A stretch of 29,749 nt of DNA from a virus: positions 1-29,749 of IMG/VR virus record IMGVR_UViG_3300015265_000014, one strand, 5' to 3'. Within the stretch, counting starts at the first letter, position 1. Each line of letters opens with the position of its first letter. Below are positions 986 to 29,749 of this stretch, piece by piece. Below the pieces are notes generated by a model. That model saw only the letters and a program-made list of their open reading frames with translations. It was not told the origin of the DNA and searched no databases. The position numbers and the translations under genes are program-made.

Positions 986-1468
986 TTAACTGAACTGACT
1001 TAGCAACTCCAACGGATGTCCTTGTGTAATTGCTGGTGCAGGAATCATCCACAAGTTCTGTGGAGTACCTCGGCCTATCAACTCAGGGCGCAATAGTGGG
1101 TAACCAGCTTCACGGAACGACCATGCAACAAACTCAGAACAAAAGAACTTGTCTGGTGTCTGTAGGGCATCGGAATGAACAAGGATGCCAAGCAATCCTA
1201 GATAGTCATATCCCTTGCCAAGTTGATCGATTGCAACTTGTTGAACTCTTACTGGGTCAGCACATGGCAAGTCTACCAATGCTGCATAACTGGACACTGC
1301 CAGGCGTTCTTTGATTGGCGTTAAACTCACACCGTGAGGAATGTTTGCACCAATCACATGGTCACCAATCACAATTTCAACGTGACTGAATGCAGACCAT
1401 GTAACACCTCGGATAAGCAAGCTACCGATAGCGCGACGGCGAGTGAATAGAACTCTAACTACACCCAT
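986..1468 (-). CDS. YiiX/YebB-like permuted NlpC/P60 papain-fold hydrolase
   Basis: This 160-residue protein shows the circularly permuted papain-fold arrangement in which the catalytic His precedes the Cys. SHVEI carries H29 near the N terminus, a GYDYLGLLG segment lies at about 86-94, and FFCSEFVAW carries C110. This is the hallmark of the YiiX/DUF830 group of NlpC/P60-related enzymes, which are thought to cleave amide or ester bonds in peptides or lipids. There is no signal peptide. It lies between the tail-fibre chaperone and the holin-like gene with its own AAAGGAG site, so it may be a lysis accessory enzyme or a virion or host-modifying hydrolase. The fold call is good; the substrate is unknown. 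Confidence 0.8.
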   Translation of the reverse strand: MGVVRVLFTRRRAIGSLLIRGVTWSAFSHVEIVIGDHVIGANIPHGVSLTPIKERLAVSSYAALVDLPCADPVRVQQVAIDQLGKGYDYLGLLGILVHSDALQTPDKFFCSEFVAWSFREAGYPLLRPELIGRGTPQNLWMIPAPAITQGHPLELLSQFS

Positions 1469-8346: not shown

Positions 8347-8637
8347 CTAAACGAGTTCTCCTACTTCAATAATGTAAGCTGTGATAGAAGTGAATTTACC
8401 CGGATCTAAAACCGGTTCTGTGTTGTTGACGATGTAAAGATAGAATGGCACACCAAACTGTTTAAGCATGTTAGTGCCAGCTCGTAATGCCATACTCTTA
8501 ACAACCACGTCGTTCCATTGAAAGTCACAAACCCAACACCTCATGATGTTGTTCCAACGCACTGTAGAGAACCTTGTATTACCAAAGTAATCGACAATGA
8601 TGCCTCCCTTATTTGAGAGGGGTACGATATAGCTCAT
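8347..8637 (-). CDS. Small baseplate protein, probable baseplate plug (Pam3 gp18/DUF6983-like)
   Basis: This 96-residue beta-rich protein has MSYIVPLSN at the start, a central MRCWVCDFQWNDVVVKSMALRAGTNMLKQFG (read in pieces) and a final ITAYIIEVGEL. The pattern of a tryptophan-containing beta strand followed by LRAGTNxLxQF resembles the small plug proteins found between Dit-like and spike genes in contractile-tailed phages such as cyanophage Pam3. It starts within the Dit-like gene stop (ATGA overlap), so translation is coupled. The family call is from memory of the pattern and synteny; the role is moderately supported. Confidence 0.6.
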   Translation of the reverse strand: MSYIVPLSNKGGIIVDYFGNTRFSTVRWNNIMRCWVCDFQWNDVVVKSMALRAGTNMLKQFGVPFYLYIVNNTEPVLDPGKFTSITAYIIEVGELV

Positions 8638-9407
8638 AGTAAGAAAGCTCCAATAATGTTGACGCCACTTGATTTAAGTATCTTCAACATCAATTGGGTA
8701 TCGGTTGGTGTGGTTGTCTGCAATGCCTTCTTCTGATCAGCAGGAACATCGAAACCGATACGCCCATCAGGTTGGATAACCCTCAACTGTTCGAAGGTTA
8801 ATGTCACTGGGAGGATGGTTGCAGTTCTGACATCTTGGTGGATGCGTACTTCACGTAACACACATCCTTCATAGGTTCCTAGGATGGTAGCCACATGAAC
8901 AATGGTGCCCTCACGAACCAACTCTTGCAGTTGAAGGAAGGCATCCTTGATAGGATCACCAGCCATACCACAGTTATCAATTGCATGTGCAGCACTGCCA
9001 ATCAAGCTACCAAGTACAGGACCAATAACACGACTAGCCATCCCCCCAACAACTTTACCAATGGTACTAATTAGTGTCAGGTCGCCCGGCATACTCACGT
9101 TAGTGATGATACCGTTCAAACTAAACATAGGATTCTTTTTAATCACATGCTCACTAATAAGAAAGCCACTGCTCACAGGGTAGGAAGTAACCTCATTCCT
9201 AAAGGAGTGGGACTCACCCATTACACAGTCTAGTGCCAAAGTGTTAAAACTGGTTTCAGTTGTTTCCTCTGGTCTTTCACTATCTGGATAAAAGATTGTC
9301 TCTATGGGGTTACCTAAATCATTAGGTGTAAAGGTTTGTGCAACTACATCCTTTTCAAATACGCTTTGACTTTTGGCCCATATAATCTGTGATTTTGTGA
9401 AAGCCAT
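8634..9407 (-). CDS. Dit-like distal tail/baseplate protein
   Basis: This 257-residue protein shows the Dit-like opening seen in many phages: LALDCVMGESHSF, EVTSYPVSSGFLISEHVIKKNP and MFSLNGIITNV, where the evT-yPV-sG--i-dHv motif is diagnostic. A hydrophobic glycine-rich stretch at about 108-143 (TIGKVVGG...VIGPVLGSLIGSAAHAI) interrupts the domain. The second half (REGTIVHVATILGTYEGCVLREV, TLTFEQLRVI) is a beta domain like those in tail-tip proteins. Its ATG overlaps the hub stop (TAATG). It should form the ring joining tube and hub. Confidence 0.75.
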   Translation of the reverse strand: MAFTKSQIIWAKSQSVFEKDVVAQTFTPNDLGNPIETIFYPDSERPEETTETSFNTLALDCVMGESHSFRNEVTSYPVSSGFLISEHVIKKNPMFSLNGIITNVSMPGDLTLISTIGKVVGGMASRVIGPVLGSLIGSAAHAIDNCGMAGDPIKDAFLQLQELVREGTIVHVATILGTYEGCVLREVRIHQDVRTATILPVTLTFEQLRVIQPDGRIGFDVPADQKKALQTTTPTDTQLMLKILKSSGVNIIGAFLL

Positions 9408-10951
9408 TATAAAGTACCTCTTAATGCACGGTCGTATCTCAAGTAATCTTGAGTCTCCCTTGCAGCCGGTTCATCACCAGCCATAACATCACTGGCAGCT
9501 TTGTTGCCTCCGTTGTAGTTGGCGTTCATGGCATCTATATTGCCGTTGTACCTTTCATTTAGTTGGTCATACAATTTGCCAGTTGCTGCTGTGGACTTAA
9601 CAAAGTCATTCCGATCATCTTGACTACTATTGACGGTAAGCCCAAGGTTCCTTGCAGTCTCTGGCATCATTTGGTACGGGCCTGCTGCACCAGCTGGTGA
9701 TACGGCATTCTGTACAGAACTGTGCCCACGGTTCTCAATGCGAAGTTTATTCTGAATAAAGTTTGACTTGGCATTGTTGCCACCAGACACACCATTGATT
9801 GCATCTAATTGATCTTGGGAAAGCTTGACAGAATTAAGCTGCTCAAACTCTTTAGGGGTTACCCCAGTGGTACTAACCGATTGATTGAGGACTGGAACAC
9901 CTTGTGTGCGATTAACTTGTTGTTGTACATCCACATCCCACGTACCAGTGCCGTTACCATTACCGCTAACATCCTTGTCACCAACCAAACCATCGTTGAA
10001 CTGCACACCAACAATACGAGTTTCCCAGGCACGGGCATAGTTGCTACCAACATGCTGTGTCCCCAGTACTAGGTATTGTTCAAAGATTGTTTGTGACCAT
10101 AAAGTATCACTTCGGAATAACACAGAGTCTGCGTTGTCTACCGAAACCACACCGTTAGAAGGTGGACGGTTTGGATCATTTGTCCTGGCACCAAGGAATG
10201 CAGTTACATCAACCACATCCCCACAATCTATAGATGCATCCAAATTCATTACGAAATCGATCTTTGCCACAGTGGCTTCTGGAGTACCTTTCAGTTTGTC
10301 CAGAGTCATTTTGTGGAAAGTGGCTTCACCCTCACGGATCTTCTGCACAACGTTGGCAGAGTTACCCATGCTGATTAACTGCACATTACTGTTAGTCCCA
10401 CGAACATAGAAACGATACTGATCACCAAGCTCTGATAGAGAGTGGCTAACCGTCCCACGCAAGATGTAGCTTAATATGGGTGTGTTTAAAACATCGTCGT
10501 CAATGCCGAAGAACTTTGGTGGTGCTGTGTATCCCGCGTATTTAGAGATAGCCCCAATCAAGCCTTTAAGTGTGCCGTTCTCATAAACCAAAGTGTTCAA
10601 CGCAGCGGTACTACTCAAAGTCTCTACTGAGTAGGGTACACACCAAATGGATGTGATGTGATTAGGTATGGCCTTGCGACCAGCTACGTTAACTACATAC
10701 CCATCCATCAGTGTGGACATAGCTGTTGGCTCATCATGATACCCAACATCCAACTTGATACTTCTTCGCTTAGTGTCCAGAAGCATCTTCAATGTCTCAG
10801 GCCCCAGGTTGTAGATATCAACCTTTAGGGTATCTGCCATCCAACTAAGGTTGCCTTGATAAACAAAGTCAATCCTGTTTTCAGATGTAGATAGGAGAAC
10901 TTCCTTTGTGTCTTTGTTGAAAATCTGTAACTCTACTCTACGCTTCCACAA
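9407..10951 (-). CDS. Baseplate hub protein with C-terminal lytic transglycosylase domain
   Basis: This 514-residue protein combines two functions. Residues about 1-330 form the hub (gp27/Mu gp44-like): LDVGYHDEP, LMDGYVVNV and TIFEQYLVLGTQHVG fit that family. After a glycine/asparagine-rich linker (about 335-365), residues 395-514 look like an SLT lytic transglycosylase: IENRGHSS with candidate catalytic E406, SPAGAAGPYQMMPETA, and NANYNGG near the end. It would cut peptidoglycan during tail penetration. The start is TTG at 10951, chosen because GGGAGGT is 7 bases upstream and the protein begins with the expected WKRRVEL strand. The gene follows the tape-measure-position gene. Confidence 0.85.
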   Translation of the reverse strand: MWKRRVELQIFNKDTKEVLLSTSENRIDFVYQGNLSWMADTLKVDIYNLGPETLKMLLDTKRRSIKLDVGYHDEPTAMSTLMDGYVVNVAGRKAIPNHITSIWCVPYSVETLSSTAALNTLVYENGTLKGLIGAISKYAGYTAPPKFFGIDDDVLNTPILSYILRGTVSHSLSELGDQYRFYVRGTNSNVQLISMGNSANVVQKIREGEATFHKMTLDKLKGTPEATVAKIDFVMNLDASIDCGDVVDVTAFLGARTNDPNRPPSNGVVSVDNADSVLFRSDTLWSQTIFEQYLVLGTQHVGSNYARAWETRIVGVQFNDGLVGDKDVSGNGNGTGTWDVDVQQQVNRTQGVPVLNQSVSTTGVTPKEFEQLNSVKLSQDQLDAINGVSGGNNAKSNFIQNKLRIENRGHSSVQNAVSPAGAAGPYQMMPETARNLGLTVNSSQDDRNDFVKSTAATGKLYDQLNERYNGNIDAMNANYNGGNKAASDVMAGDEPAARETQDYLRYDRALRGTL

Positions 10952-10972: not shown

Positions 10973-13900
10973 TTATTGAACAACAGTTTGATGGTACGAC
11001 TGTTGAGTTGTGGCAGACTTGCCCCCAGCTTGAACTTCCACTGTGGACACACTACCCTCCAACTTAACAGTGACATTGACATCTATAGGTTCACGCTGAA
11101 CTTTGCCAGAATAAACTGTGCCACCTTGCTGGGTTGTTCCTGCTTCTTGTCCAGCACTGCCACTAATACCTGTAAGGGAATTACCAGCTTCATCGATGGC
11201 ACCACCAATAGTTGCAGGAATGTTCTTCAACTTACCTAGTTCCTTTTGGGCATATCCTGCATCCTGTGTAACACCAGCGTTTACTGCAATTGCCGCAAGA
11301 CTTCTACGGTGTGCTGCCTCTGCGCCTTGGTTAATTACCCGGTTGGTATTTGCGTAAGAACTGAGGGTAGCTAAGGGCTGCTCTTTTGATTTAGCAGTAA
11401 CGTTAGCTTGTTCCTCAGGACTAAGGTTTGCCAATGTGCCGAAACCTTCAAGTCCAGACCTACGCAAACCTTCTGCAACAGCCATAGGACTCATGTTGCG
11501 ATCTTTGCCATTCTTGATAATACGAAGGGCACGCTCAGTTGGGTTGTCTGCAAGTTCCCTCTTGGTTGCAAGGTCTTCTAAACCAAGTGTTCCAACAACT
11601 TGATTAATTGCGCCGCTGTAGTCACCAAGCTCCATTGCACCAGACATAGATGCACCAGACAATGTAGCGCTACGTGCATCACGATCTGCTACACCAGCAC
11701 CACGTAATGCAATGTTGTTGCTCAAGTACTGACCGGGATTAACACCGTAGTCCAGTGGCTTACCCATATCCTCACGGAAACCAGCAGCAAGTTCCTGTGC
11801 ATTGCGGTCAACCATTTGAGTGACATCTTTAACAGTGTTGTAAGCAGTGCTTAACCAACCACGCTGTTTCTTACTGCTGTCTTGCTCCCGCTTTTCATTC
11901 TCTCTATGGGCAGCATTCCAATCCCTGGCAAATGACATACCCTCTTTTTGCGTGTTGTCTGGTGGTTTATTACCTTTGCCACCACCACCTAATGCATCTT
12001 CAACTTCAAGCTTACTGGCACTTACCAAGAAACCATACTTACCAGATTTGTCAGAAGCCATTGTGGCTTGTGCTGCTAGAAACTCTTCCTGAGTCATTGC
12101 AGCATTACGCTTAATACTGTCTTGGGCTTGTTCAATCTTGTGGCGGTTACGCTTCTGCCACTCCAGATCCTTGTTAACCGTTTGCGTCTGTGTGCGAAGT
12201 TTTCCATCCACTTCTACACCCTGCACAATATCAACAGAGTCTAACTTACCAACCGCCATCTGCATTTGAACTTGGTCGTGATACTTGGCAAAGTCCCTAA
12301 ACTCACGTGGAGCTTTAAATTCAACACCACGTTTAGTAGGTTCGCCATTCTCAGTAACCAACCCATCAAGTGATGCGCCACCTGGGAAACCCTTGTTCTG
12401 GAGTAACCCCATTTCAAGAATCTCAGTTCCAGTTTGCTTTTCATACTGTTTGCGGATGTTGCCTTCTAGCCTGTGACCACGTTCAATGTCTTCAGTTGAA
12501 AAAGGTTTGGTAGTAGTCATCCCCCAATTTTCCATCGACTTTTCGCCAACGAATGTATTGCGGGTTCTGTCTGTGGTAATAACTCGGCCAACATCAGAAG
12601 CTGTTACAAGTTCTTTACGCTCATCCAACCACTGCTGACTGCCTTGTGGGGCAACACTAATACTAATATCAGGGTTCTGTTCAGCGTACTTCTGCCTAGC
12701 TTGTTCCAACCTTTCATCACGAGTAGCAGCAACTGGTGAAGGTTTATCAGCAACTGTCTCTACAGGTTTAACTGGTGGGGCTGCTTTCTTACTTGTATCA
12801 AAATCAACGTGGGGAGTTGTTGGATTTGGTGTAGCAGCTCGTGCAGCCACTGACTGTCCTAAACGACTGCCTGACGTTGCGCCAGTGGTCGATACAGACT
12901 CTCCCAGGTTGTTGCCATGCGATGCCCGCTGGTTGGTATTTGCGCCTTCCCTGACGCCTTCCACAGCTTGCATATCAACACTGGGGGCAGCCGTTGCGAA
13001 GGAGTCATCGACACCTGCTGGACCTTCCCGAGACAGTGCCTCAATGCCCGTCTGCTCTGCATAGGGGCCATGATCCTTACCACCTTTGCCATCGTCAGGC
13101 CCACCACTTGGCGGAGCCCCACCGTCACTAGCGGAGCCGTCATCGTCCTGCAAATCGACATCAGCCGCTGCAAGCTCTAGATACTCATCAACTTGCGTTA
13201 AATTGTTGTCTTTGTAATCTGCTGCAAGATCCCCAGCAGGTTGAAAGAATACATCTACAGTACGTGCAAGTTCATCACGAGCGTAACGGTCAAGTTGCGA
13301 TGGCTTATGCTCAAGCTCTCTATCAAGTTGTGGCTTCTGTGTTGAGACATCTGACTCATCAAGTTGCTCATCAAGCGATTGCTCAAGCTTGTCATAGTTA
13401 ATGTGCAAGCCACCTTCCCAGGATTTACGACTTACTTCTGAATCACTAATGCCGTAGATGCGCCCAAGCTGTTTAGGAAGCTCAGTTAATGCCGCACGTT
13501 TTACAGTGGCTTGTTGATACTCATCATCTTGCTGAGCAAACTTACTATATGAAAGGTTGTGTGTACCGTAGGTAAGCAACGTAGACATAGTGTCCACTTG
13601 CTCAGGATCATCGGTCCAAATACCTTTCTTAGTCATGCCACGCTTAACAACACCTTCTGCAAACTCACGCAGCTTACTGCTGTTAAGGGATGCCACCAAT
13701 TCGTGGGGACTTGGATAAGCATTGTAAGCAGCAGTGGGGGGAATAATGTTGCCCTTCCCTGCACCAACAATTCTTACAGCTTCATCAACACCATGTTTCT
13801 CAACAAGGGAATTAAATTGATCATCATTAGTTTGAATAGATGTAGCGTTCTGCACCGAAATCTCTTTCAGTCGTGCAGGCAGCAACTTACTAATCTGCAT

Positions 13901-15007
13901 GGAGATAAGCTTGACAGCCTTATTCCTTTCGGAAGTAGACATGTACTCAAGCTTTTCTGGATCAATGTATTGCTCAGCAAGTTTATCAAAGTACTCTTGC
14001 ACGTTAGCGTTATCAGGCAACCCCAATGCTTCGGATTGTTGTTCCTGAATAGTATTCCCTTTCATGGCCCTTGCAGGTTGCATGTATGCAGGGTACTTAG
14101 CAGGAGCCTTTAACGAAAACTCATTGTGCAGAAGGTCTGACGACACTTCATTTTTATTGATTGGCAGAATGTCGTAAGTGGCCCCGGAAAGGGATTCACG
14201 ATACGCACCAAAGATAGCAGCCAAACCTGAGTGTGGTGTTTTGTTATCTTGGGCATAGTCAAATTCAACAACAGACAGAGAACCCATGTCCTCTTTGTCA
14301 TCATCAAAGGTTCCACCAACATCACCAAAATCTAGTACCGACCTTTTACTGGTAAGTTTAGATGGTGTTAAGCCTGTGACAGCAATGCTGTTAAAGATTG
14401 AAACTTCTTCTTTAGAGAAAGACTTACTACGATCATCCGAAGACATCGAGATATATTGATCGTATTTATTCAATACGCTTGCCAGTTCGTTTTCCAAACC
14501 AGCCGCTTTAATCTTCCCTGCTACAACTGTTTCTGGTGTTAGGAGTGTGGAGTTTTCTTCATAGTTGCTGGAGATTGCTCCTGTCTCTTTACCAACAAAG
14601 TCGCGTTGTTTCTTAATCTGTTCAAGCTTTCTTGTTGTCGCATTCTTATTCGTTTGCGCAACAGTGGCCTTAACAGCTTCGCTAGTAGAGACAACTGGTG
14701 TATCTCGATATCTGGCAAAACGATCTTCAAGAAGCATTTCCTGAACATCTAAGTCATCCCAATCTTCACTGGCAATAACTTTCTCAAACTGAGCCTGACT
14801 GCCACCACTCGCTTTAGACATGAAGTATGCAAGTTGTTTCCGGCGTGTTGCCTTCTCTTGCTTACGTTGTGCGGCAATGCTTACATCAGATGCTTCGTGG
14901 GAAACATTGCCTGCTGTTTGTGATGGTGGAATATAACTCTGTGTGCCGGAAGCTACACCAGTAGGTTTTTCGCGCTTGCCAAGTTTAAGTACCTTCTTTT
15001 CATCCAT
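10973..15007 (-). CDS. Tape-measure-position protein with embedded YqaJ/lambda-exonuclease-like nuclease domain
   Basis: This 1344-residue protein lies between the tail assembly chaperone and the baseplate hub, where the tape measure protein belongs; at about 1.5 A per residue it would set a tail near 200 nm. Residues 1-640 are mostly helical and charged. Residues 640-780 are a Gly/Ser/Asp/Pro-rich linker. Residues 785-960 are a PD-(D/E)xK nuclease of the YqaJ/lambda-exo type: QGSQQWL (W793) and TAS, RGHRLE (E848), GASLDGLV (D881), EFK (E896, K898) and YHDQVQMQM (Q912, Q914). All catalytic residues are present. The rest is helical, and the final 40 residues (REPIDVNVTVKLEG) look like a tape-measure C terminus. 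No transmembrane segment is evident. The ATG at 15007 follows GAGGG. The tape-measure role is by synteny; the nuclease fold is by motif. Confidence 0.85.
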   Translation of the reverse strand: MDEKKVLKLGKREKPTGVASGTQSYIPPSQTAGNVSHEASDVSIAAQRKQEKATRRKQLAYFMSKASGGSQAQFEKVIASEDWDDLDVQEMLLEDRFARYRDTPVVSTSEAVKATVAQTNKNATTRKLEQIKKQRDFVGKETGAISSNYEENSTLLTPETVVAGKIKAAGLENELASVLNKYDQYISMSSDDRSKSFSKEEVSIFNSIAVTGLTPSKLTSKRSVLDFGDVGGTFDDDKEDMGSLSVVEFDYAQDNKTPHSGLAAIFGAYRESLSGATYDILPINKNEVSSDLLHNEFSLKAPAKYPAYMQPARAMKGNTIQEQQSEALGLPDNANVQEYFDKLAEQYIDPEKLEYMSTSERNKAVKLISMQISKLLPARLKEISVQNATSIQTNDDQFNSLVEKHGVDEAVRIVGAGKGNIIPPTAAYNAYPSPHELVASLNSSKLREFAEGVVKRGMTKKGIWTDDPEQVDTMSTLLTYGTHNLSYSKFAQQDDEYQQATVKRAALTELPKQLGRIYGISDSEVSRKSWEGGLHINYDKLEQSLDEQLDESDVSTQKPQLDRELEHKPSQLDRYARDELARTVDVFFQPAGDLAADYKDNNLTQVDEYLELAAADVDLQDDDGSASDGGAPPSGGPDDGKGGKDHGPYAEQTGIEALSREGPAGVDDSFATAAPSVDMQAVEGVREGANTNQRASHGNNLGESVSTTGATSGSRLGQSVAARAATPNPTTPHVDFDTSKKAAPPVKPVETVADKPSPVAATRDERLEQARQKYAEQNPDISISVAPQGSQQWLDERKELVTASDVGRVITTDRTRNTFVGEKSMENWGMTTTKPFSTEDIERGHRLEGNIRKQYEKQTGTEILEMGLLQNKGFPGGASLDGLVTENGEPTKRGVEFKAPREFRDFAKYHDQVQMQMAVGKLDSVDIVQGVEVDGKLRTQTQTVNKDLEWQKRNRHKIEQAQDSIKRNAAMTQEEFLAAQATMASDKSGKYGFLVSASKLEVEDALGGGGKGNKPPDNTQKEGMSFARDWNAAHRENEKREQDSSKKQRGWLSTAYNTVKDVTQMVDRNAQELAAGFREDMGKPLDYGVNPGQYLSNNIALRGAGVADRDARSATLSGASMSGAMELGDYSGAINQVVGTLGLEDLATKRELADNPTERALRIIKNGKDRNMSPMAVAEGLRRSGLEGFGTLANLSPEEQANVTAKSKEQPLATLSSYANTNRVINQGAEAAHRRSLAAIAVNAGVTQDAGYAQKELGKLKNIPATIGGAIDEAGNSLTGISGSAGQEAGTTQQGGTVYSGKVQREPIDVNVTVKLEGSVSTVEVQAGGKSATTQQSYHQTVVQ

Positions 15008-15023: not shown

Positions 15024-15688
15024 TTATTGCCAGTTCATCACTCGCACAGATAGTGGAGAATCAGAAGGCGAAATGTATTCTTTAAGGTCTAACAACTCAT
15101 GCATGATGAATAGGTCATCAATGCTATATGTGAAGTCTTGAAGCTCCCTCAAAGTGCACATTGGTGGATTAGCAATCAATGGACGATGAAGAAAGTAATT
15201 CACTTCGGGGAACAGATCTGAAATCTTTGGTTTACCATCTGATGCAGTGTGGTACGTAGTCGTCCCATCTTCATTAGTGGTTATACCAATTACTTCTTCA
15301 ACTGGTTCTTCTTGACTTCTTCCATTGCCGCTAGACCTTCTACGAAAAAATCCTTGAAGTTCACCTCAAGAACAAAAGAGAAGATTGAGTAGATGCGCAT
15401 CAAGTCGCCACTGAATTCAACGTCGAAGTTGGCTTCATTAATCACAACATTGTCAACAACAGCGCAAGAAATACACTCTTTAACCAGTGATATAAATACG
15501 GGCTTCTCTACACGTTGAAGGATATAAATAAGATTGCCGAAGTTCCAATCACCCATAACAAAGGATAGAGCGTCATCCCCCATTACAGTTAGCACATCAA
15601 TTTGCATAGCCATTGCTTTGTTAGCAGGCCATTGCCGGACGAATACAGGCTTACCTCTAATCTCCCGAGTCTCTGTCTTACACGCCAT
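15024..15688 (-). CDS. Tail assembly chaperone, long form by programmed -1 frameshift
   Basis: The short chaperone frame starts at 15688 and is read through codon 115 (Phe, 15344-15346). There, ribosomes that slip back one base on T TTT TTC continue in the -1 frame for 106 more codons, to a TAA at 15024-15026, giving a 221-residue protein. The -1 frame is fully open from the heptamer to that stop. Its product includes FPEVNYFLHRP, LRELQDFTYSIDDLFIMHELL and ends SVRVMNWQ. It stops 16 bases before the tape-measure start, so it fills a region that otherwise has no gene. This is the G/GT arrangement of lambda and many other tailed phages: the short form coats the tape measure and the extended form recruits tube subunits. 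Join: 15688-15344 then 15344-15024. Confidence 0.85.
15290..15688 (-). CDS. Tail assembly chaperone, short form (G-like)
   Basis: This 132-residue product results when no frameshift occurs. It is translated from an ATG at 15688 with AAGGAG upstream and ends at 15290. The sequence (RGKPVFVRQWPANKAM, then helical segments) is typical of small helical tail chaperones located between tube and tape-measure genes. It should bind the tape measure during tail assembly and not remain in the virion. The last 17 residues (after F115) differ from the long form because the frame is different. It follows the tube gene after a stable hairpin. Specific family membership cannot be decided by eye. Confidence 0.85.
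   Translation of the reverse strand: MACKTETREIRGKPVFVRQWPANKAMAMQIDVLTVMGDDALSFVMGDWNFGNLIYILQRVEKPVFISLVKECISCAVVDNVVINEANFDVEFSGDLMRIYSIFSFVLEVNFKDFFVEGLAAMEEVKKNQLKK
15344..15367 (-). promoter_or_regulatory. Programmed -1 ribosomal frameshift signal
   Basis: On the minus strand the order is GAGGTGA (15367-15361), a 10-base spacer, then T TTT TTC (15350-15344), read in the zero frame as GAT TTT TTC. The heptamer is a classic X XXY YYZ slippery site in which both tRNAPhe can re-pair. GAGGTGA is a perfect match to the anti-Shine-Dalgarno region. Its 10-base distance equals that of the stimulatory SD in Escherichia coli dnaX. I could not see a strong downstream hairpin. Confidence 0.85.
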
Positions 15689-15745: not shown

Positions 15746-16201
15746 TTACAGGCCTACGTAATCGTACTTACCATTGGTGAACCAGATCTGTTCAAACTCA
15801 ACAGTCCAACTCAGCGAGACAATGCCAGTACCACGAACAATTGCAGGCATCACCGGAATGAAACCGTTAACACCAGTAACAAGTGCAAGGCCCATCTTAT
15901 CGTTCATCAAACCTTGGATTGGATCAAAGGTTGCACGGTTGCCACTAAGGCCTGTGTTCTGCGAAAGGATTGCACGGCTGTTCAACACGGCGTTGTAATC
16001 ACTGGTCTGCAACAGGGTGAATACAATACGGCCAGAACGGTCTGCGATAGTTGCTACAGACATTTCACCACGGGCACCAATGACTTTGGTGTGTTGTACG
16101 TTAGTACGGCCAGCGGAAATGATGCTGTTGTTGTCAGTGAAGCCAGTTACTGGAATACCATCCAGCAGAAGGTCAACGTTGTAAAAGCTATACTGCTTCA
16201 T
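15746..16201 (-). CDS. Tail tube protein (DUF3277 family)
   Basis: This 151-residue protein is the likely subunit of the inner tail tube through which DNA passes. The pattern fits DUF3277: a short N-terminal strand (YSFYNVDLLLDGIPVTGF), GARGEMSVATIADRSGRIVFTLLQTS (read in pieces), and a C terminus with VSLSWTVEFEQIWF. It follows the sheath gene, as the tube usually does. The ATG at 16201 has AAGGAG upstream. A strong hairpin follows the stop. Confidence 0.88.
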   Translation of the reverse strand: MKQYSFYNVDLLLDGIPVTGFTDNNSIISAGRTNVQHTKVIGARGEMSVATIADRSGRIVFTLLQTSDYNAVLNSRAILSQNTGLSGNRATFDPIQGLMNDKMGLALVTGVNGFIPVMPAIVRGTGIVSLSWTVEFEQIWFTNGKYDYVGL

Positions 16202-16214
16202 AAATTACTTCTCC

Positions 16215-17657
16215 TTATTCCGAGAACGAGCCGGTGATGGTTACGCCATGAATTGCGCCTGCACCAACTGCGATAAAGGAGATACCATCGTACTGACGAT
16301 TACCTTTGTCAGCAGCACTAACATCACCAACTGGGATGTAATCGATACGGTAGCCAAGTTCAAGGTAAGTGCCATCAGTGGTGTAACCTGGGGCAATCAA
16401 ACCGTTAGTAACACCTTGGCGCAGACCATGCTCAAGTTTCTGAATGATCATGCTTACACCAGTATCAGTGAAAGGAACCTTGGTTGGAGATTGATACATC
16501 AGGTTGAATACATCAGTCTCAGTACGATTCTGCAACCAATCAATGCCGTGCTTGGTGTCGAAGAAACTACCATCAGCCATTTTCGATGTGGCGAAGAAGG
16601 AGTTACCACCAACATCCAGGAACACGTTGCAGTTGATTGCTTTCAGGTTGTTGTTCTGACCAGAGCCAATACGAGCAACTGGAATGGTAGGCAACTTCTT
16701 GTACATCAGTGTGATGGTGGTATTGGTGCCTTCAAAGTTAACAGTGAATGCACGACCAGCAACAGAGATACCAGCGTAACTACCAGCAACTGGTGCGTAG
16801 GTAGAAAGTGTATTACCCAAAGATGCCGAGAACATTTGACCAGCGAAGGTTGAAAGGTTGGCATTTGTCAGGGTAACTGCATCATTGGTTGTGTTGAAGA
16901 ACTTCTTGGTACGGGCTTGAGTCCAAACTGCTGCATCATATGCCGCTTGGGTATCGTCAAACTCTGTATCCAGTGCAACACCATAGAAGGAGTTATCTAC
17001 TTGTTCCGCAGCAGACAAAGCTTGTGCAGGAGTTTCAGCAGCAGCACCTTGGGTAAGGGTTGCAATGATCATGCCTAGTGCAGCAGCCAAACCTTGTACA
17101 TCCGCAGATGCAACGGTAATGGTCGAAGTCACACCAGTGGTTGGACTAGTGATTACAAAATGGGTGCCATTGTAAACACAGGTAGTGCCTGGCTTTTGAA
17201 CGGCCAACTTACCTTGAACAATGGTTGCAGCAGCAGCAAACGAAATAGCACCAGACAAATCAGTTGCAGTAATAACAACAAGGGTGCCATCAATAGTGCA
17301 AGTGAAGCCACCAGCAGTAACAGCTTGCAAGGCAGGCAGGCTTGGTGTGTTGCTACCAGTTGCATGTGCAGCAGTGTTAACGCCATCGATCAGGCCAACC
17401 ATAAAGTAAAGTGGTCGTGGCACTTGTGCGTAATAGACGTTTGCAGCTTTGTTAATCTCGGTGCCATCCAGATAGTCAGCAGCTACAGCCTTCATGCCAC
17501 TGTACTGACGGATACGTTCTTCCGCAGTAATAGGATTGGTGCCGACGTTTGCAGATTTACTAAAAAAGCCCAACTTACCAAAGCCAGCCAAACCTTGTGG
17601 GGTCGGGGCAAGGGCAATGCCTACATTGATATACTCAGAAATTGGAACTGACGACAT
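16215..17657 (-). CDS. Contractile tail sheath protein (DUF3383 family)
   Basis: This 480-residue protein opens with PISEYINVGIALAPTPQGLAGFGKLGFF (read in pieces) and contains EERIRQYSGM, FFNTTNDAVTL and a C-terminal region LGYRIDYIPVGDVSAADKGNRQY, followed by AGAIHGVTITGSF. These match the DUF3383 sheath family, found with DUF3277 tubes in contractile-tailed phages. Length is about right for the family. Residues 95-210 contain two similar Ala/Thr-rich segments (CTIDGTLVVITATD and CVYNGTHFVITSPT) that probably form a surface domain. The start ATG at 17657 has AAGGAGG about 9 bases upstream. It marks the virion as a myovirus. Confidence 0.92.
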   Translation of the reverse strand: MSSVPISEYINVGIALAPTPQGLAGFGKLGFFSKSANVGTNPITAEERIRQYSGMKAVAADYLDGTEINKAANVYYAQVPRPLYFMVGLIDGVNTAAHATGSNTPSLPALQAVTAGGFTCTIDGTLVVITATDLSGAISFAAAATIVQGKLAVQKPGTTCVYNGTHFVITSPTTGVTSTITVASADVQGLAAALGMIIATLTQGAAAETPAQALSAAEQVDNSFYGVALDTEFDDTQAAYDAAVWTQARTKKFFNTTNDAVTLTNANLSTFAGQMFSASLGNTLSTYAPVAGSYAGISVAGRAFTVNFEGTNTTITLMYKKLPTIPVARIGSGQNNNLKAINCNVFLDVGGNSFFATSKMADGSFFDTKHGIDWLQNRTETDVFNLMYQSPTKVPFTDTGVSMIIQKLEHGLRQGVTNGLIAPGYTTDGTYLELGYRIDYIPVGDVSAADKGNRQYDGISFIAVGAGAIHGVTITGSFSE

Positions 17658-23875: not shown

Positions 23876-25882
23876 TTAATTAACCCAATTTTCATAGTTG
23901 GCCGAACTTCCACTGTATTCGATGGCAACTGCATCACTTACGTTATCAACAACGTCGTCATGTCCAGTTGAACTGCCTAAGCCAGTCATGCCCAAGACTT
24001 CACGCATAACGTGTGCCTTATGTACATGCTCACTTGGAAACCATAATCTACCTTGTGCAAAGTAAGGGATTGTGTTCAGGAAACGAGCCACCTTATCGCC
24101 GGAGGTTTTATCCTTCGGAACAGGCATAACTCTAATGTCACCGTCACGTGTAAATTGTTGATTCAAGAACTGGCCCGAACTCTTATCTTCCATGTACAGG
24201 GCCGTAGGCAGCATGCACGGAAATGAAAGATCAAGCTTGTTGTGTTTATTCCAAAACTTAATCAACTCCTTCTTAAGCTCAGGAGTCTCCCACTTACCAA
24301 GCACGAGGTCCGCTAGGTACATATCTCGGTTGCGCATCACTACCCACAAACAAACGACAGAGTAATCTGAGTATGTCTGCGCAGTAGATGCTGTATCCGC
24401 TGTCATGAAGCTACGAATAACCTGCGACTTATCAAGCTCCAGATATTCCTGCCACCATGCTTCTTGAACGAGCCCTGTACCTTGTGCAGTCGGATCACCC
24501 ATGTACTGACTGTTGAATGTATACGGTGATGCCTTCTTCATTGCATCTAGTGACTCCAAACTCTTACGAGACGGCCACAATGCGGTACGAGCTTCCTTAC
24601 GAACTAACTTAAAGAGTATTGGCTTGGCATGTGTATACGCCTGCTTTTCAATAAGCTTGTCGTACCATGCTTGCGAACCAACACCTTCTTCAATAATTGC
24701 AGGGATGTTCAACCAGTCATATGCATCACTGGAGTTACCCCGTAGCAGATAACCAACAAGGTCTTCGTCGTGAACTCGTTGCATGATGATAGCCACAGGA
24801 GTACGAGGACATTTAATCTCGTTACCTTCGTCATCATTAACAACACCGTCGTTTGCGAGACGGGACATAAATGTGTTGTCGTATCGATCATTAATCTCAG
24901 AACGCACTGTATTAGAGTAAGCATCCTTTGGTTTAATAATGTCGTCTACAACAAAGCAACCGGAATATACGGTAGTCAAACTACCAGCACCCTTCCCTGT
25001 CAACTTACCACCAGATGGAACTGCGTGAAGCACGCCACCTTTAGTAGTACCCCAACGTTCAAGCGAGCGCTTACTAGCATCGATCTTCAATGCTGGAAAC
25101 ACTTTCATGAATAGTTCGTTGAGCATGATGGTACGGATGTAACCACTACTCTCTGCTACAACATCATCCGCATAAGATGTGATGATGTTATGTGAGCCAG
25201 GATTGTGGCAGAAGCTGTACAACGGTAGAAAGATACTGAGGATCTGTGTTTTGGAATGACGGGGAGGGATCGTTACAATTACCCGATCCCTCTTACCATC
25301 CACAAGGTCTTGGCATACTTCGAAAATAACATTATGGAAGTCCTGCATCTGGAATTTGAAACCCATCTGCAACTCAAATGCCCACTTACTGAATATCGCA
25401 AAGCTAGCGACAAGTATTTCTCTTGCCTCGGTACAATCTTCGTTAGTAAGTTCTTCAAGATTTACTTCCAGCGGACTGTTAATAATGGCCATCGCCAAAG
25501 AAAGTTTCTTCTTGGCTTTGTTAACAACAGCGACATCACCATTACTATCTAACTCAACTTTACCTTCTGTAATTAATTTCTTAATCTCAGAACTGTATAC
25601 AGTGTTGTTTTTATGGTCAGCATTTCGGAACGCTTCCAACTGAGCATCTTGCAAGGCTTTGATTACAGCATTGTTCTCTAAGCCCTGACCTTCAATCTCA
25701 CTTGTAATAGATTTATGGTATTGCTCAATAATAAAATCATTTTCTGAAATATACTTTCGTAGTTGTGGGAGTGTCTGTGTGATACCCCTTGATCTACTAA
25801 CTTTTAACAAATCACCGTAATGTTGAGTCAGTTGGTTAACAATGTAGTTATCAACTTGCTCATCAATAGGTAATGCAGCCAT
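23876..25882 (-). CDS. Terminase large subunit (packaging ATPase and nuclease)
   Basis: This 668-residue motor drives DNA into the prohead and cuts it. The ATPase has a Walker A-like loop (TIPPRHSKTQIL, K211) and a Walker B (CFVVDDIIKP, D313/D314). The nuclease domain shows D496 in MTADTAST, E565/D566 in MEDKSSGQF, and D642/D643 in GHDDVVDNVSDA, the three acidic clusters of the RNase H-like fold. About 170 residues precede the ATPase, a longer N-terminal region than usual, perhaps for binding a small subunit. Its ATG overlaps the stop of the zinc-ribbon gene (TAATG). No recognisable small terminase is present in the window. Confidence 0.95.
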   Translation of the reverse strand: MAALPIDEQVDNYIVNQLTQHYGDLLKVSRSRGITQTLPQLRKYISENDFIIEQYHKSITSEIEGQGLENNAVIKALQDAQLEAFRNADHKNNTVYSSEIKKLITEGKVELDSNGDVAVVNKAKKKLSLAMAIINSPLEVNLEELTNEDCTEAREILVASFAIFSKWAFELQMGFKFQMQDFHNVIFEVCQDLVDGKRDRVIVTIPPRHSKTQILSIFLPLYSFCHNPGSHNIITSYADDVVAESSGYIRTIMLNELFMKVFPALKIDASKRSLERWGTTKGGVLHAVPSGGKLTGKGAGSLTTVYSGCFVVDDIIKPKDAYSNTVRSEINDRYDNTFMSRLANDGVVNDDEGNEIKCPRTPVAIIMQRVHDEDLVGYLLRGNSSDAYDWLNIPAIIEEGVGSQAWYDKLIEKQAYTHAKPILFKLVRKEARTALWPSRKSLESLDAMKKASPYTFNSQYMGDPTAQGTGLVQEAWWQEYLELDKSQVIRSFMTADTASTAQTYSDYSVVCLWVVMRNRDMYLADLVLGKWETPELKKELIKFWNKHNKLDLSFPCMLPTALYMEDKSSGQFLNQQFTRDGDIRVMPVPKDKTSGDKVARFLNTIPYFAQGRLWFPSEHVHKAHVMREVLGMTGLGSSTGHDDVVDNVSDAVAIEYSGSSANYENWVN

Positions 25883-26412: not shown

Positions 26413-28206
26413 TTACAGGAAAAAGCGCTCGCATTTGTGGATCACATTCAAATCCCAATCACCCATTGAAGGTTCATCAGGCAAAGCTACGCCGTACTGC
26501 TGTTCCCACTGCTGTTTCAAAGCAAGCAAATAGTTACCGGAGTACAATTTAACGAATTCTTCTCGTATTACTTTATCGAGGAATGGAATGTAGTTGGCAT
26601 GTACAGCGAAGCTATCGTGCACCCATACAGCAGGAAGCCCGACTTCTTTAAGTCTCAACGCCACCATACGAAGGTGAGTTGCGTCAAGGCTGTGAATCAC
26701 ATTAGGACCAATTGCAGATTTGTGCTTGGAGAGTTTAGGAATGAAATTCCCTTCCTCATCTAGAACGTCCTTCTTGATAGTGATGCTGTGCTTGCGTCGT
26801 TTTATAACAACTGTAACTACTTCTTCTTCTGTTACACGGTAGTCCTGACTTGCAGTAAATCCATCAGGAGTGTCCCAGGTGATTTGGTGTGCACCTGTTG
26901 CACAAATGATTGACATACAATCTTTCAGCCAGTCAACACCAGCCACAATAGGTTGCAGAACGATGTTAGTTGTGTTGAACAGTTGTGAACCAAGCTGACA
27001 AGTAACCTTTCGATCTACAGCAGGAAACATATCGCTCACGTTATCCATTGCGGAAATACGAGTAGCAGAATATGCAAATGTCATTACTGGCTTCTTAGCA
27101 ACTTTACGGGTTGCCATGTACTTGTAATCTTCCAGTAAAACAATTTCCCATTTGTATGCAACGAATTCATAGATGTCCATGCCATCCGCTGCCTCACTAA
27201 TCTCCATTCCAAGCCGGTCTGTGATTGCGCTGGATCTCATCAGGGCTGACCAATGCTGTAGGCCAGAGCAACGCCCATCCCTTGGAACGAAGGCCGCCAA
27301 CGGCTTCTCAGGAGCCCTTAAATGTTCGGCAATGAGCCTGGCATTTGCCATGCCGCTGTAGGGTTTATCCCACGTCTTCCAAGCCAGGTTATCCCAGTCA
27401 CGGGCCTGCGCAGCGTATAGACAGGCTTTCGCCTCAGTGTCCATACCGTCATAGCGGGTGTCCTCTGCATAGTCGTCTGTGGCTGCCACAAGAGCCGAAA
27501 GCCCTTCTGGTGTCAGTGCCTCACTGAATATTGGTAAGCAAAACGCCTTCTCGTGATCTGCACCTTGAGGACTAATGCCAATAGTTGTATCCGCATAAAC
27601 ACGACCACGACTATCAAGGAACACAGGAAACTTGAAACTACGTTCGTACCTCAGTTGCTCTGCACATTTCAAAGCACGGCTGGCCATTACACTTGATGTG
27701 TAAGAATCCTTTTCTACGTGCTTGTATAGTTCAAGGATGAAATCATTCACACGGAATTTTGTATCTGCAATAACGCTGGCAGCTTTAAGGTGCGACGTTT
27801 GAGGCACACCATACCTTACCTTGGCTTCTGGAATTAAATGACCTTCCTTCACAACCTGCTTAAGTATTGGAGGCAAGCCACCAGCGATCATCATACTCAC
27901 AAGTTCATAAGTAGGATTTACAAAGACATTGGTTTTGGTTTTGCTAACACGTATGTTCTCAAGGGTTAGCAATTTGGCACTTACCATAGCCATTATGAAA
28001 CAAAGACCTATGTACGGATCTTCGTGTAAGTATTGGGCTAGGTAGTTTCTTTTACTGTAGTTGACGTCACTATCAATCCTGCACAAAGCGACATATAACT
28101 TTGGAATACAATCAACATAGACTTGTGCAGATTGACGATAAGGTGGTGCCAGCTTTGGTATTAACCTTCTTGTGACAGAAAGTTCAAACGATTCTTCAAC
28201 GGCCAC
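26413..28206 (-). CDS. Single-subunit T7-like DNA-dependent RNA polymerase, short N terminus
   Basis: This 597-residue polymerase would transcribe phage genes independently of the host enzyme. Conserved elements are FPVFLDSRGRVYA, motif A (PRDGRCSGLQH, D310), motif B (TRKVAKKPVMTFAYS: R367, K371, Y379), IAPNF-like IGPNVIHSLDATHLR, and motif C (VHDSF, H530, D531), ending in a FAFA-like RFFL. T7 polymerase has 883 residues; here about 227 residues before motif A are missing. The T7-type specificity region before IGPNVIHS is present (WDTPDGF to KHKS). In motif B the T7 YG is YS. Start: GTG at 28206, with GAGG 6 bases upstream; a TTG 3 bases earlier has the frame immediately after a TGA, so no N-terminal extension is possible. 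Confidence 0.93.
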   Translation of the reverse strand: MAVEESFELSVTRRLIPKLAPPYRQSAQVYVDCIPKLYVALCRIDSDVNYSKRNYLAQYLHEDPYIGLCFIMAMVSAKLLTLENIRVSKTKTNVFVNPTYELVSMMIAGGLPPILKQVVKEGHLIPEAKVRYGVPQTSHLKAASVIADTKFRVNDFILELYKHVEKDSYTSSVMASRALKCAEQLRYERSFKFPVFLDSRGRVYADTTIGISPQGADHEKAFCLPIFSEALTPEGLSALVAATDDYAEDTRYDGMDTEAKACLYAAQARDWDNLAWKTWDKPYSGMANARLIAEHLRAPEKPLAAFVPRDGRCSGLQHWSALMRSSAITDRLGMEISEAADGMDIYEFVAYKWEIVLLEDYKYMATRKVAKKPVMTFAYSATRISAMDNVSDMFPAVDRKVTCQLGSQLFNTTNIVLQPIVAGVDWLKDCMSIICATGAHQITWDTPDGFTASQDYRVTEEEVVTVVIKRRKHSITIKKDVLDEEGNFIPKLSKHKSAIGPNVIHSLDATHLRMVALRLKEVGLPAVWVHDSFAVHANYIPFLDKVIREEFVKLYSGNYLLALKQQWEQQYGVALPDEPSMGDWDLNVIHKCERFFL

Positions 28207-28216
28207 CAATCACCTC

Positions 28217-28429: not shown

Positions 28430-29749
28430 TACGAGATTTCGCAGAACCCACCAGCACAAGCCAACTCGGCAGCGAGGTTGATAGAGTTGCCATTTGCTTC
28501 AAACACATCATCAATATTGATAGCCTCAAGGTGAACAAGCATGGATTCATAGACTTCTTTGGAGCAGTCTTCGAAAGGAAGTTGCGGATAAGCCTCTGCA
28601 CCGAAGAATGGAAGTACACTGATGCCGTTGTAATGCTCACGGTTAATCCACATCCAGTTGGTGAGTTCTTCCCATTCGTTATCCTTAACACTGATGGTGC
28701 AAGATACGTTGTGTTTGTTGTCACCCTGCAAGTGGCCACGAGCAACCCAATCAAGACTTACTTTCTTCACACGTTCCAGCAGTGCGAACATACTTTCAGT
28801 ACGAACACATGCACCCTCTGGAGCAGATTGTGGGAAAGACAGAACAACTTGGTGAGGGACATTCACATCTTGTTCAACCAATGCAGGAGCAACACGCATC
28901 ATGTATTGAGCAAGCTCTTCATCTTTACCAGCACGCATACGACGAATGTAATATTCAGCGTGCCATGCATGGATGCCACTAGAAGTACCCAATGCCAACG
29001 AAGTTGTGCCAGCAGGTTTAACACAGGTAATACGTTCAGCTTCATTGATGCCAATAATGTTTGCGATGATCTGGTTTGTTTGAATTGCTACGTTAGCAGC
29101 TTGATCCATATCCAGTTCAGTCACAGTATTACTAGCAATGCCTGTCATCGAAACGCCGAGTAGTGCCCCGCGTTCACACGTCTCACGCCATTTAGGATTG
29201 AGGTAGTGGAAGTCTGTGTAACCCGCTTGCAAAGTACCAATAAAAGTAGCAGCCGAACTAACATCGTTAAAATCCTCCTGACTAGATACAAGGGAAGCAT
29301 TAATTTCAGTGAGGTTGCACATTTGATAAGGTTCAAGTGCAATCTCACAACAAGGGTTAGTGCCCCAATCTTTATTGTTGGTCCAGTAAACACCTGGCTC
29401 ACCACAGCCGCTTGCTTCAACACGAGCCATCAGCTTGACGAATTGGTCAGAAGTTACTTCACCACGAAGAAGTACAGCACTATTGTTAGCGCGTGCACGG
29501 TACGGGTGAGTTTCCCACCAGTTACCAGACTTGGAAGTAATCAGTTCTTCGTCAGAAAGATCGAAGAGGCTAATCATTGCAGCACGACGAATACCACCAG
29601 CCAGAACGGCATCAGCAATAATGCAGGCAGCATCGTGTACTTCAATTGGTCGAAGCTTACGGCCCATAGCTTTATTGAACAGTGCTGACAATGCATCAAC
29701 ACAAATCTTCAATGGTGCTGGGCCTGGGGCTTGACCACCTGTAGTTACA
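28429..29749 (-). CDS. nrdJ: Class II (adenosylcobalamin-dependent) ribonucleotide reductase, 5' end beyond window
   Basis: The frame is open to the window edge (base 29749), so the N terminus is missing; the visible part is about 440 codons. It reduces ribonucleotides to deoxyribonucleotides for phage DNA synthesis. Class II monomer (RTPR-like) signs are GGQAPGPAPL, NPCCEIALEPYQMCNLTEIN (thiyl-radical Cys codon 29350-29352 and the redox Cys 11 residues later at 29317-29319, the spacing of RTPR C408/C419), KPAGTTSLALGTSSGIHAW, and a C-terminal C-AGGF-C (codons 28456-28458 and 28441-28443) matching RTPR C731/C736. The usual NPCGEI has a Cys in place of Gly. Host cobalamin and thioredoxin are needed. 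Its stop overlaps the CWC start. Confidence 0.9.
   Translation of the reverse strand, partial: VTTGGQAPGPAPLKICVDALSALFNKAMGRKLRPIEVHDAACIIADAVLAGGIRRAAMISLFDLSDEELITSKSGNWWETHPYRARANNSAVLLRGEVTSDQFVKLMARVEASGCGEPGVYWTNNKDWGTNPCCEIALEPYQMCNLTEINASLVSSQEDFNDVSSAATFIGTLQAGYTDFHYLNPKWRETCERGALLGVSMTGIASNTVTELDMDQAANVAIQTNQIIANIIGINEAERITCVKPAGTTSLALGTSSGIHAWHAEYYIRRMRAGKDEELAQYMMRVAPALVEQDVNVPHQVVLSFPQSAPEGACVRTESMFALLERVKKVSLDWVARGHLQGDNKHNVSCTISVKDNEWEELTNWMWINREHYNGISVLPFFGAEAYPQLPFEDCSKEVYESMLVHLEAINIDDVFEANGNSINLAAELACAGGFCEIS

Follow-up and report, generated by a model that had tools for sequence, protein, structure and literature searches.

The gene at 10973-15007 and its nuclease domain

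We analyzed a stretch of viral DNA of 29,749 nucleotides (IMG/VR record IMGVR_UViG_3300015265_000014, positions 1-29,749), below termed the window. The open reading frame at 10973-15007 on the minus strand runs for 1344 codons without interruption and encodes a protein in the tape-measure slot of the tail genes, with an internal domain of the YqaJ/lambda-exonuclease type. A first-pass annotation of the sequence had placed this gene after a frameshifted chaperone and before the hub, without stating the strand, and this placement was borne out. Using Pfam and PHROGs the gene order was found to be sheath, tube, tail assembly chaperone, 1344-residue gene, hub and baseplate, which is the order of a contractile tail (Table 1). 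The gene is the longest of the tail module. Since all other genes between the chaperone and the baseplate encode at most 514 residues, it represents the tape measure by position and elimination. The slot between tail assembly chaperone and hub was repeated in the named members of the phage family Chaseviridae that were read, and the syntenic genes are annotated variously as tape measure, virion structural protein or exonuclease.

The chaperone gene contains the heptamer TTTTTTC at 15350-15344, and the open -1 frame from there ends at 15024. Heptamer and open frame, the usual sign upstream of tape measures, support the predicted frameshift of the chaperone that the first-pass annotation had read from the sequence. 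An AlphaFold model of residues 145-1344 of the tape-measure protein, made from nine sequences, had a pLDDT of 40.7 and a pTM of 0.26, and only a mostly helical tendency could be read from it.

YqaJ was the sole confident Pfam domain in the 1344-residue protein (PF09588, residues 792-919, E 2.8e-14); its score of 54.1 bits exceeds the cut-off of 22, and the match covers positions 1-146 of the 150 in the profile. In PHROGs, phrog_434 (RecE-like recombination exonuclease) matched residues 774-964 with an E of 1.1e-16, while phrog_19855 ("virion structural protein") matched residues 719-971. The domain was also matched to LHK-Exo by phmmer (E 1.5e-6). The motifs named in the first-pass annotation, including D881, E896, and K898, were found at the places it had given. 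In a domain alignment of 51 related viral sequences Q788, W793, R797, G844, E848, S879, D881, E896, K898, Q912, Q914, and M917 were invariant. The predicted active site consists of E848, D881, E896, and K898, which were invariant in 13 tape-measure proteins as well, while W793 and R797 form the predicted 5'-phosphate pocket and Q912 and Q914 belong to the QMQ motif. A chance match is excluded, because every active-site residue is invariant in the 51 related sequences.

Residues of lambda exonuclease probed by mutagenesis include E85, D119, and K131 of the active site and W24 and R28 of the phosphate pocket (PMC7496540). In the phmmer alignment W24 and R28 of lambda exonuclease fall on W793 and R797, and the channel residue R45 falls on R814, which is present in five of five copies from the window clade. 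E85, D119, and K131 correspond to E848, D881, and K898, and we take E896 to be the counterpart of lambda E129. S804 is the counterpart of lambda S35; it is replaced by alanine in two relatives, and the serine is not essential to the argument.

The first-pass annotation had proposed structure prediction as a check. The AlphaFold2 model of the domain, made from the window and its metagenomic relatives, had a pLDDT of 89.3 and a pTM of 0.86 and showed the lambda-exonuclease fold. The best matches in the PDB (Foldseek, VIA-align) were LHK-Exo with a Z of 19.3 over 182 residues and lambda exonuclease with a Z of 18.5 over 191 residues, both clearly ahead of Cas4 and the other proteins with this fold. 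Because the residues match and the best structural matches of the model are to these two enzymes, the domain belongs to the lambda-exonuclease branch and, judged from the kept residues and the predicted fold, looks catalytically intact. This agrees with the intact YqaJ/lambda-exonuclease domain of the PD-(D/E)xK nucleases that the first-pass annotation had described.

Table 1. Features of the window that bear on the tape-measure-slot gene
Feature	Coordinates	Strand	Evidence
Tape-measure-slot protein, 1344 residues, internal YqaJ domain	10973-15007	minus	Open frame, position between chaperone and hub, synteny with chasevirus genes
YqaJ/lambda-exonuclease domain, residues 785-965	12113-12655	minus	Pfam, AlphaFold2, structural matches, invariant residues
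Variable low-complexity linker, residues 723-762, directly preceding the nuclease domain; relatives lack it or differ in its length	12722-12841	minus	Alignment
Tail assembly chaperone, 132 residues (15290-15688), with overlapping -1 frame to 15024	15024-15688	minus	phrog_11820 E 4.3e-35
Tail tube	15746-16201	minus	phrog_280 E 8.3e-30; synteny with annotated chasevirus tube gene
Tail sheath (contractile tail)	16215-17657	minus	phrog_205 E 8e-103, DUF3383 E 5.2e-77
Baseplate hub with C-terminal transglycosylase (SLT) domain (9485-9712)	9407-10951	minus	phrog_196 E 4.3e-23, SLT E 4.3e-10
Terminase large subunit, basis for placing the phage	23876-25882	minus	61-67% identical to Chaseviridae over 99-100% of length

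Occurrence and conservation in Chaseviridae

Judged by its core genes (terminase, contractile tail, and single-subunit RNA polymerase), the window belongs to Chaseviridae as a distant member. Its terminase is nearest to those of the Aeromonas and Vibrio members of the family, and a megablast search of the window against phages gave no match. The window is a 29.7 kb fragment; its relatives G001 and G002 measure 54.2 and 53.5 kb, and Chaseviridae genomes are 52-56 kb.

A search of related phages for the same insertion had also been proposed. By Pfam scan exactly one YqaJ domain was found per genome in all 10 named chaseviruses, and exactly one per record in all nine viral records, which include the window and four of its relatives. 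The domain sits in the gene of the tape-measure slot in 13 of 13 proteins aligned, and wherever the gene was read. The four metagenomic relatives carry the same fusion and are 60-73% identical to the window protein in a whole-protein scan, while the overall identity of the family proteins to it is approximately 20% (13 proteins). The domain of Nefertitivirinae is strongly diverged (22-24% identity to that of the window). These copies were too diverged for the direct protein search, which therefore missed them, and they were reached via terminase, synteny, and Pfam scan. Shewanella phage Spp001, reached by structure search, is a chasevirus in which all catalytic residues are kept and the tape measure is recorded as two open reading frames. 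Tape measures recorded as two or more open reading frames were also seen at L099 (7793-11253) and in Aeromonas phage pAh6-C and Shewanella phage SppYZU05. From the genomes read, a nuclease within the tape measure is a family-wide feature of Chaseviridae.

A domain-profile scan of viral contigs gave a sample of 80 viral loci. Giant open reading frames were found only in four known chasevirus records among them, and all other copies had 196-479 residues. Among the top 50 structural matches the long phage proteins were those of pAh6.2TG (chaseviral by name) and Spp001, and two further proteins of 1229-1230 residues. In a tree of 55 nuclease domains the best tree puts the tape-measure copies in two groups, while a single clade is not rejected (p-AU 0.3) and long branches meet. 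The tree does not decide between a single and a multiple origin of these copies.

For pairs of the window with its relatives, dN/dS ranged over 0.014-0.079 within the domain and over 0.073-0.125 in the remainder of the protein. These are the pairs computable in both; two pairs gave no value for the domain because there were no differences or synonymous sites were saturated. Across the 13 family proteins 15 of 181 positions were invariant in the domain, compared to 18 of 1163 elsewhere (p 6e-6). By dN/dS, purifying selection in the window clade acts more strongly on the domain than on the remaining protein, which is not what a relic would show.

Virion location, genome ends, and possible roles

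When purified particles of Escherichia phage 4HA13 were analyzed by mass spectrometry, the protein named as tail tape measure ranked within the twelve most abundant (PMC9699118). In the 4HA13 record the running numbers (sheath ..876, tube ..877, and tape measure ..880) agree with the gene that bears YqaJ. The presence in virions that the first-pass annotation had named as a check was thus found for this one relative, under the name of tape measure; YqaJ is not mentioned in the paper by a word search. Tails were measured at 132 nm for ST32 and 116.5 nm for 4HA13 (PMC9699118). With a helical ruler of 0.15 nm per residue the full chain would give 181 nm for 4HA13 and 186 nm for ST32, and 136 and 141 nm when YqaJ and SLT are subtracted. 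The better fit without the two domains weakly suggests that the nuclease domain is not part of the ruler.

With respect to delivery, ManZ is an inner-membrane protein, and a fusion to it labels the lambda tape measure during genome injection (PMC13190303). A tape-measure domain can therefore be at the membrane when the end of the genome arrives. The linear genomes of chaseviruses bear direct terminal repeats of approximately 3 kb (PMC12842549); the repeats are 3120, 3234, and 3202 bp in three relatives, with the 4HA13 paper (PMC9699118) among the sources. A separate 5'-3' exonuclease of another type was found in the replication module of nine of nine chasevirus genomes searched. Since the replication module has its own 5'-3' exonuclease, the tape-measure copy probably does something else.

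The occurrence of the fusion in all related viruses examined suggests that the enzyme travels in the virus particle and acts on DNA at infection. The explanation we favor, and consider moderately probable, is that the domain is a tail-borne 5'-3' exonuclease for double-stranded DNA, delivered with the tape measure and acting on DNA ends at entry. The tape measure with its nuclease would be built into the tail, as mass spectrometry indicates for one relative and as we infer for the phage of the window. It would exit the tail before the DNA, as in other phages, and on reaching or crossing the inner membrane the domain could fold or form a trimer as known for lambda exonuclease. There it would act on 5'-phosphorylated DNA ends. 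Which DNA is acted on is the least certain part of this explanation; the most natural substrate would be the terminus of the linear phage genome as it enters. Resection of the 5' strands of the approximately 3 kb repeats would bare complementary 3' strands and allow circularization or the formation of concatemers, and blunt ends open to RecBCD would be turned into 3'-tailed ends, which RecBCD enters poorly. Proteus phage Myduc (L003, 1348-1491) carries an annotated inhibitor of the host RecBCD nuclease, a hint that RecBCD threatens chasevirus genomes. In its fullest form, in which the whole family injects a tape-measure lambda-type exonuclease ahead of the genome and resects the incoming ends, so that circularization or RecBCD resistance is independent of phage gene expression, the proposal is possible, with chances somewhat short of even.

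Several observations count against a tail-borne exonuclease acting at entry. The virion evidence for 4HA13 consists of a protein name and a running number, without a view of the coverage of the nuclease stretch. No match to RecT (PF03837) or ERF (PF04404) was found in nine chasevirus genomes, a search that left out Rad52-like, Red-beta-only, and unknown annealases, and this leaves the version with resection and annealing without a known phage partner. The lumen of a tail tube is approximately 4 nm, in which a folded lambda-exonuclease trimer should not fit, so the domain must travel unfolded or as a monomer, or be placed elsewhere. No transmembrane-like stretch was found in the 1344-residue protein (top hydropathy 0.83), and we found no experiment on activity, ejection or tail length in the literature for any chasevirus.

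The evidence for the domain and its delivery would equally fit a nuclease that the tail carries as a weapon, by which host DNA ends or plasmids are degraded or resected, or a DNA-based defence is disabled; SNIPE, a bacterial defence, shows that nucleases and tape measures meet at the injection site. However, the few copies present per tail would do little to a whole chromosome. A circular chromosome moreover has few ends, while lambda exonuclease can begin only at a free double-strand end, not at a nick or gap (PMC7496540). We therefore find the weapon unlikely. Another use of the same position would be a clamp, in which the domain holds the 5'-phosphate end of the packaged genome at its entry to the tail and ties the DNA to the tape measure for orderly ejection, cleavage being secondary or absent. 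This would be in agreement with the invariant W793 and R797 of the phosphate pocket and with a position within the tail, which in other phages holds the leading end of the DNA. Yet the metal-binding and catalytic residues E848, D881, E896, and K898, which a pure clamp would not need, are just as invariant, and we give the clamp slightly less credence than the weapon.

The tape-measure link could alternatively be a production route only, with new copies of the protein or a processed fragment serving late in the cell, in recombination or packaging. Every other viral copy found is a small recombination-type exonuclease, and a free YqaJ copy in a Pseudomonas phage adjoins a Bet annealase, which is the ordinary setting of the enzyme; the Nefertitivirinae proteins are filed under DNA metabolism by PHROGs. 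Against this, the gene was located within the tail genes in all genomes read, and for the relative 4HA13 the full-length protein has been reported from virions. A late gene would also be an odd site for a replication function, and the missing RecT or ERF partner in the nine genomes speaks against a recombination role as well, which leaves the late role about as improbable as the clamp. The strong divergence of the Nefertitivirinae domain might finally be expected of a functionless relic of an old fusion, but the low dN/dS of the domain and its invariant catalytic residues argue against a relic. An assembly artefact was rejected, since the fusion recurs in four other, independent contigs and in many isolate genomes. 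Relic and artefact together are very improbable.

If the tail-borne exonuclease is active, a DNA-processing enzyme would be delivered before any phage gene is expressed, to the place where the genome end appears. The questions touched are which enzymes a tape measure can deliver to the cytoplasm, by what means linear genomes with terminal redundancy are protected and joined directly after entry, and how a folded enzyme passes a tail tube. Since the fusion is conserved across a phage family with isolates growing on laboratory E. coli, these questions are testable in cultured phages.

Other genes, database labels, and known systems

A 598-residue T7-like RNA polymerase is encoded at 26413-28209 (minus strand) of the window, between the ribonucleotide reductase gene and the terminase. 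G001 and G002 carry the same RNA polymerase and a second RNA polymerase-like gene elsewhere, and the window clade therefore appears to have two single-subunit RNA polymerases. The partial large subunit of ribonucleotide reductase at 28432-29712 (minus strand) matched the Pfam barrel model only modestly, and the window lacks a small-subunit gene before the terminase, unlike most relatives; the enzyme is possibly a B12-dependent class II reductase. Downstream of the tail fibre genes, a small protein at 986-1468 (minus strand) had a sub-threshold match to permuted papain-like amidases (C92) and is a possible lysis enzyme. The gene at 8347-8637 (minus strand) encodes a baseplate plug protein related to gp18 of cyanophage Pam3.

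In the window clade the SLT domain is the C-terminal part of the hub; in Cleopatravirinae it is C-terminal in the tape measure, and in three Nefertitivirinae-like genomes it was not found. Read from these positions, it is a wall-degrading domain that moved between neighboring tail genes.

PHROGs splits the homologous tape-measure proteins of two chasevirus subfamilies between phrog_149, "exonuclease" (DNA metabolism), and phrog_19855 (head and packaging). In public records the Nefertitivirinae protein is labeled exonuclease, while the Cleopatravirinae protein is labeled virion structural protein or tail fiber. The present analysis corrects these labels, by which one protein family is split among "exonuclease," "tail fiber," and "virion structural protein." The first-pass annotation had known of no well-described case of a tape measure with a recombination-type exonuclease. 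Among titles, abstracts, and some full papers, a search outside which most subscription journals fell, we found no account of a nuclease or YqaJ domain in a tape measure. The claim holds to that extent, but the feature itself is family-wide in Chaseviridae and some members were already labeled "exonuclease" in databases. The nuclease family, tape measures with enzyme domains, and the database labels are thus known, and for the combination no text was found.

Compared to lambda exonuclease and LHK-Exo, the domain of the window shares the fold, the catalytic residues, and the 5'-phosphate pocket. These are free enzymes of approximately 200-230 residues, often paired with an annealase, whereas the domain of the window is embedded in a 1344-residue tail protein. 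The proteins in the tape-measure slot of Chaseviridae (phrog_19855 and phrog_149) have the same gene slot, YqaJ domain, and invariant residues, but share only approximately 20% identity over the whole protein, and the Cleopatravirinae versions have the SLT domain in addition at their C-terminus. Tape measures with peptidoglycan hydrolase or peptidase domains likewise hold an enzyme domain that presumably aids entry; their targets lie in the cell wall, while the domain of the window is a predicted DNA enzyme. The N4 virion RNA polymerase, T4 Alt, and the T7 internal proteins are examples of virion proteins delivered into the cell together with the genome. They resemble the proposed enzyme in being carried by the particle and acting at once after entry, and differ from it in that the enzyme of the window would be an exonuclease inside the tail ruler.

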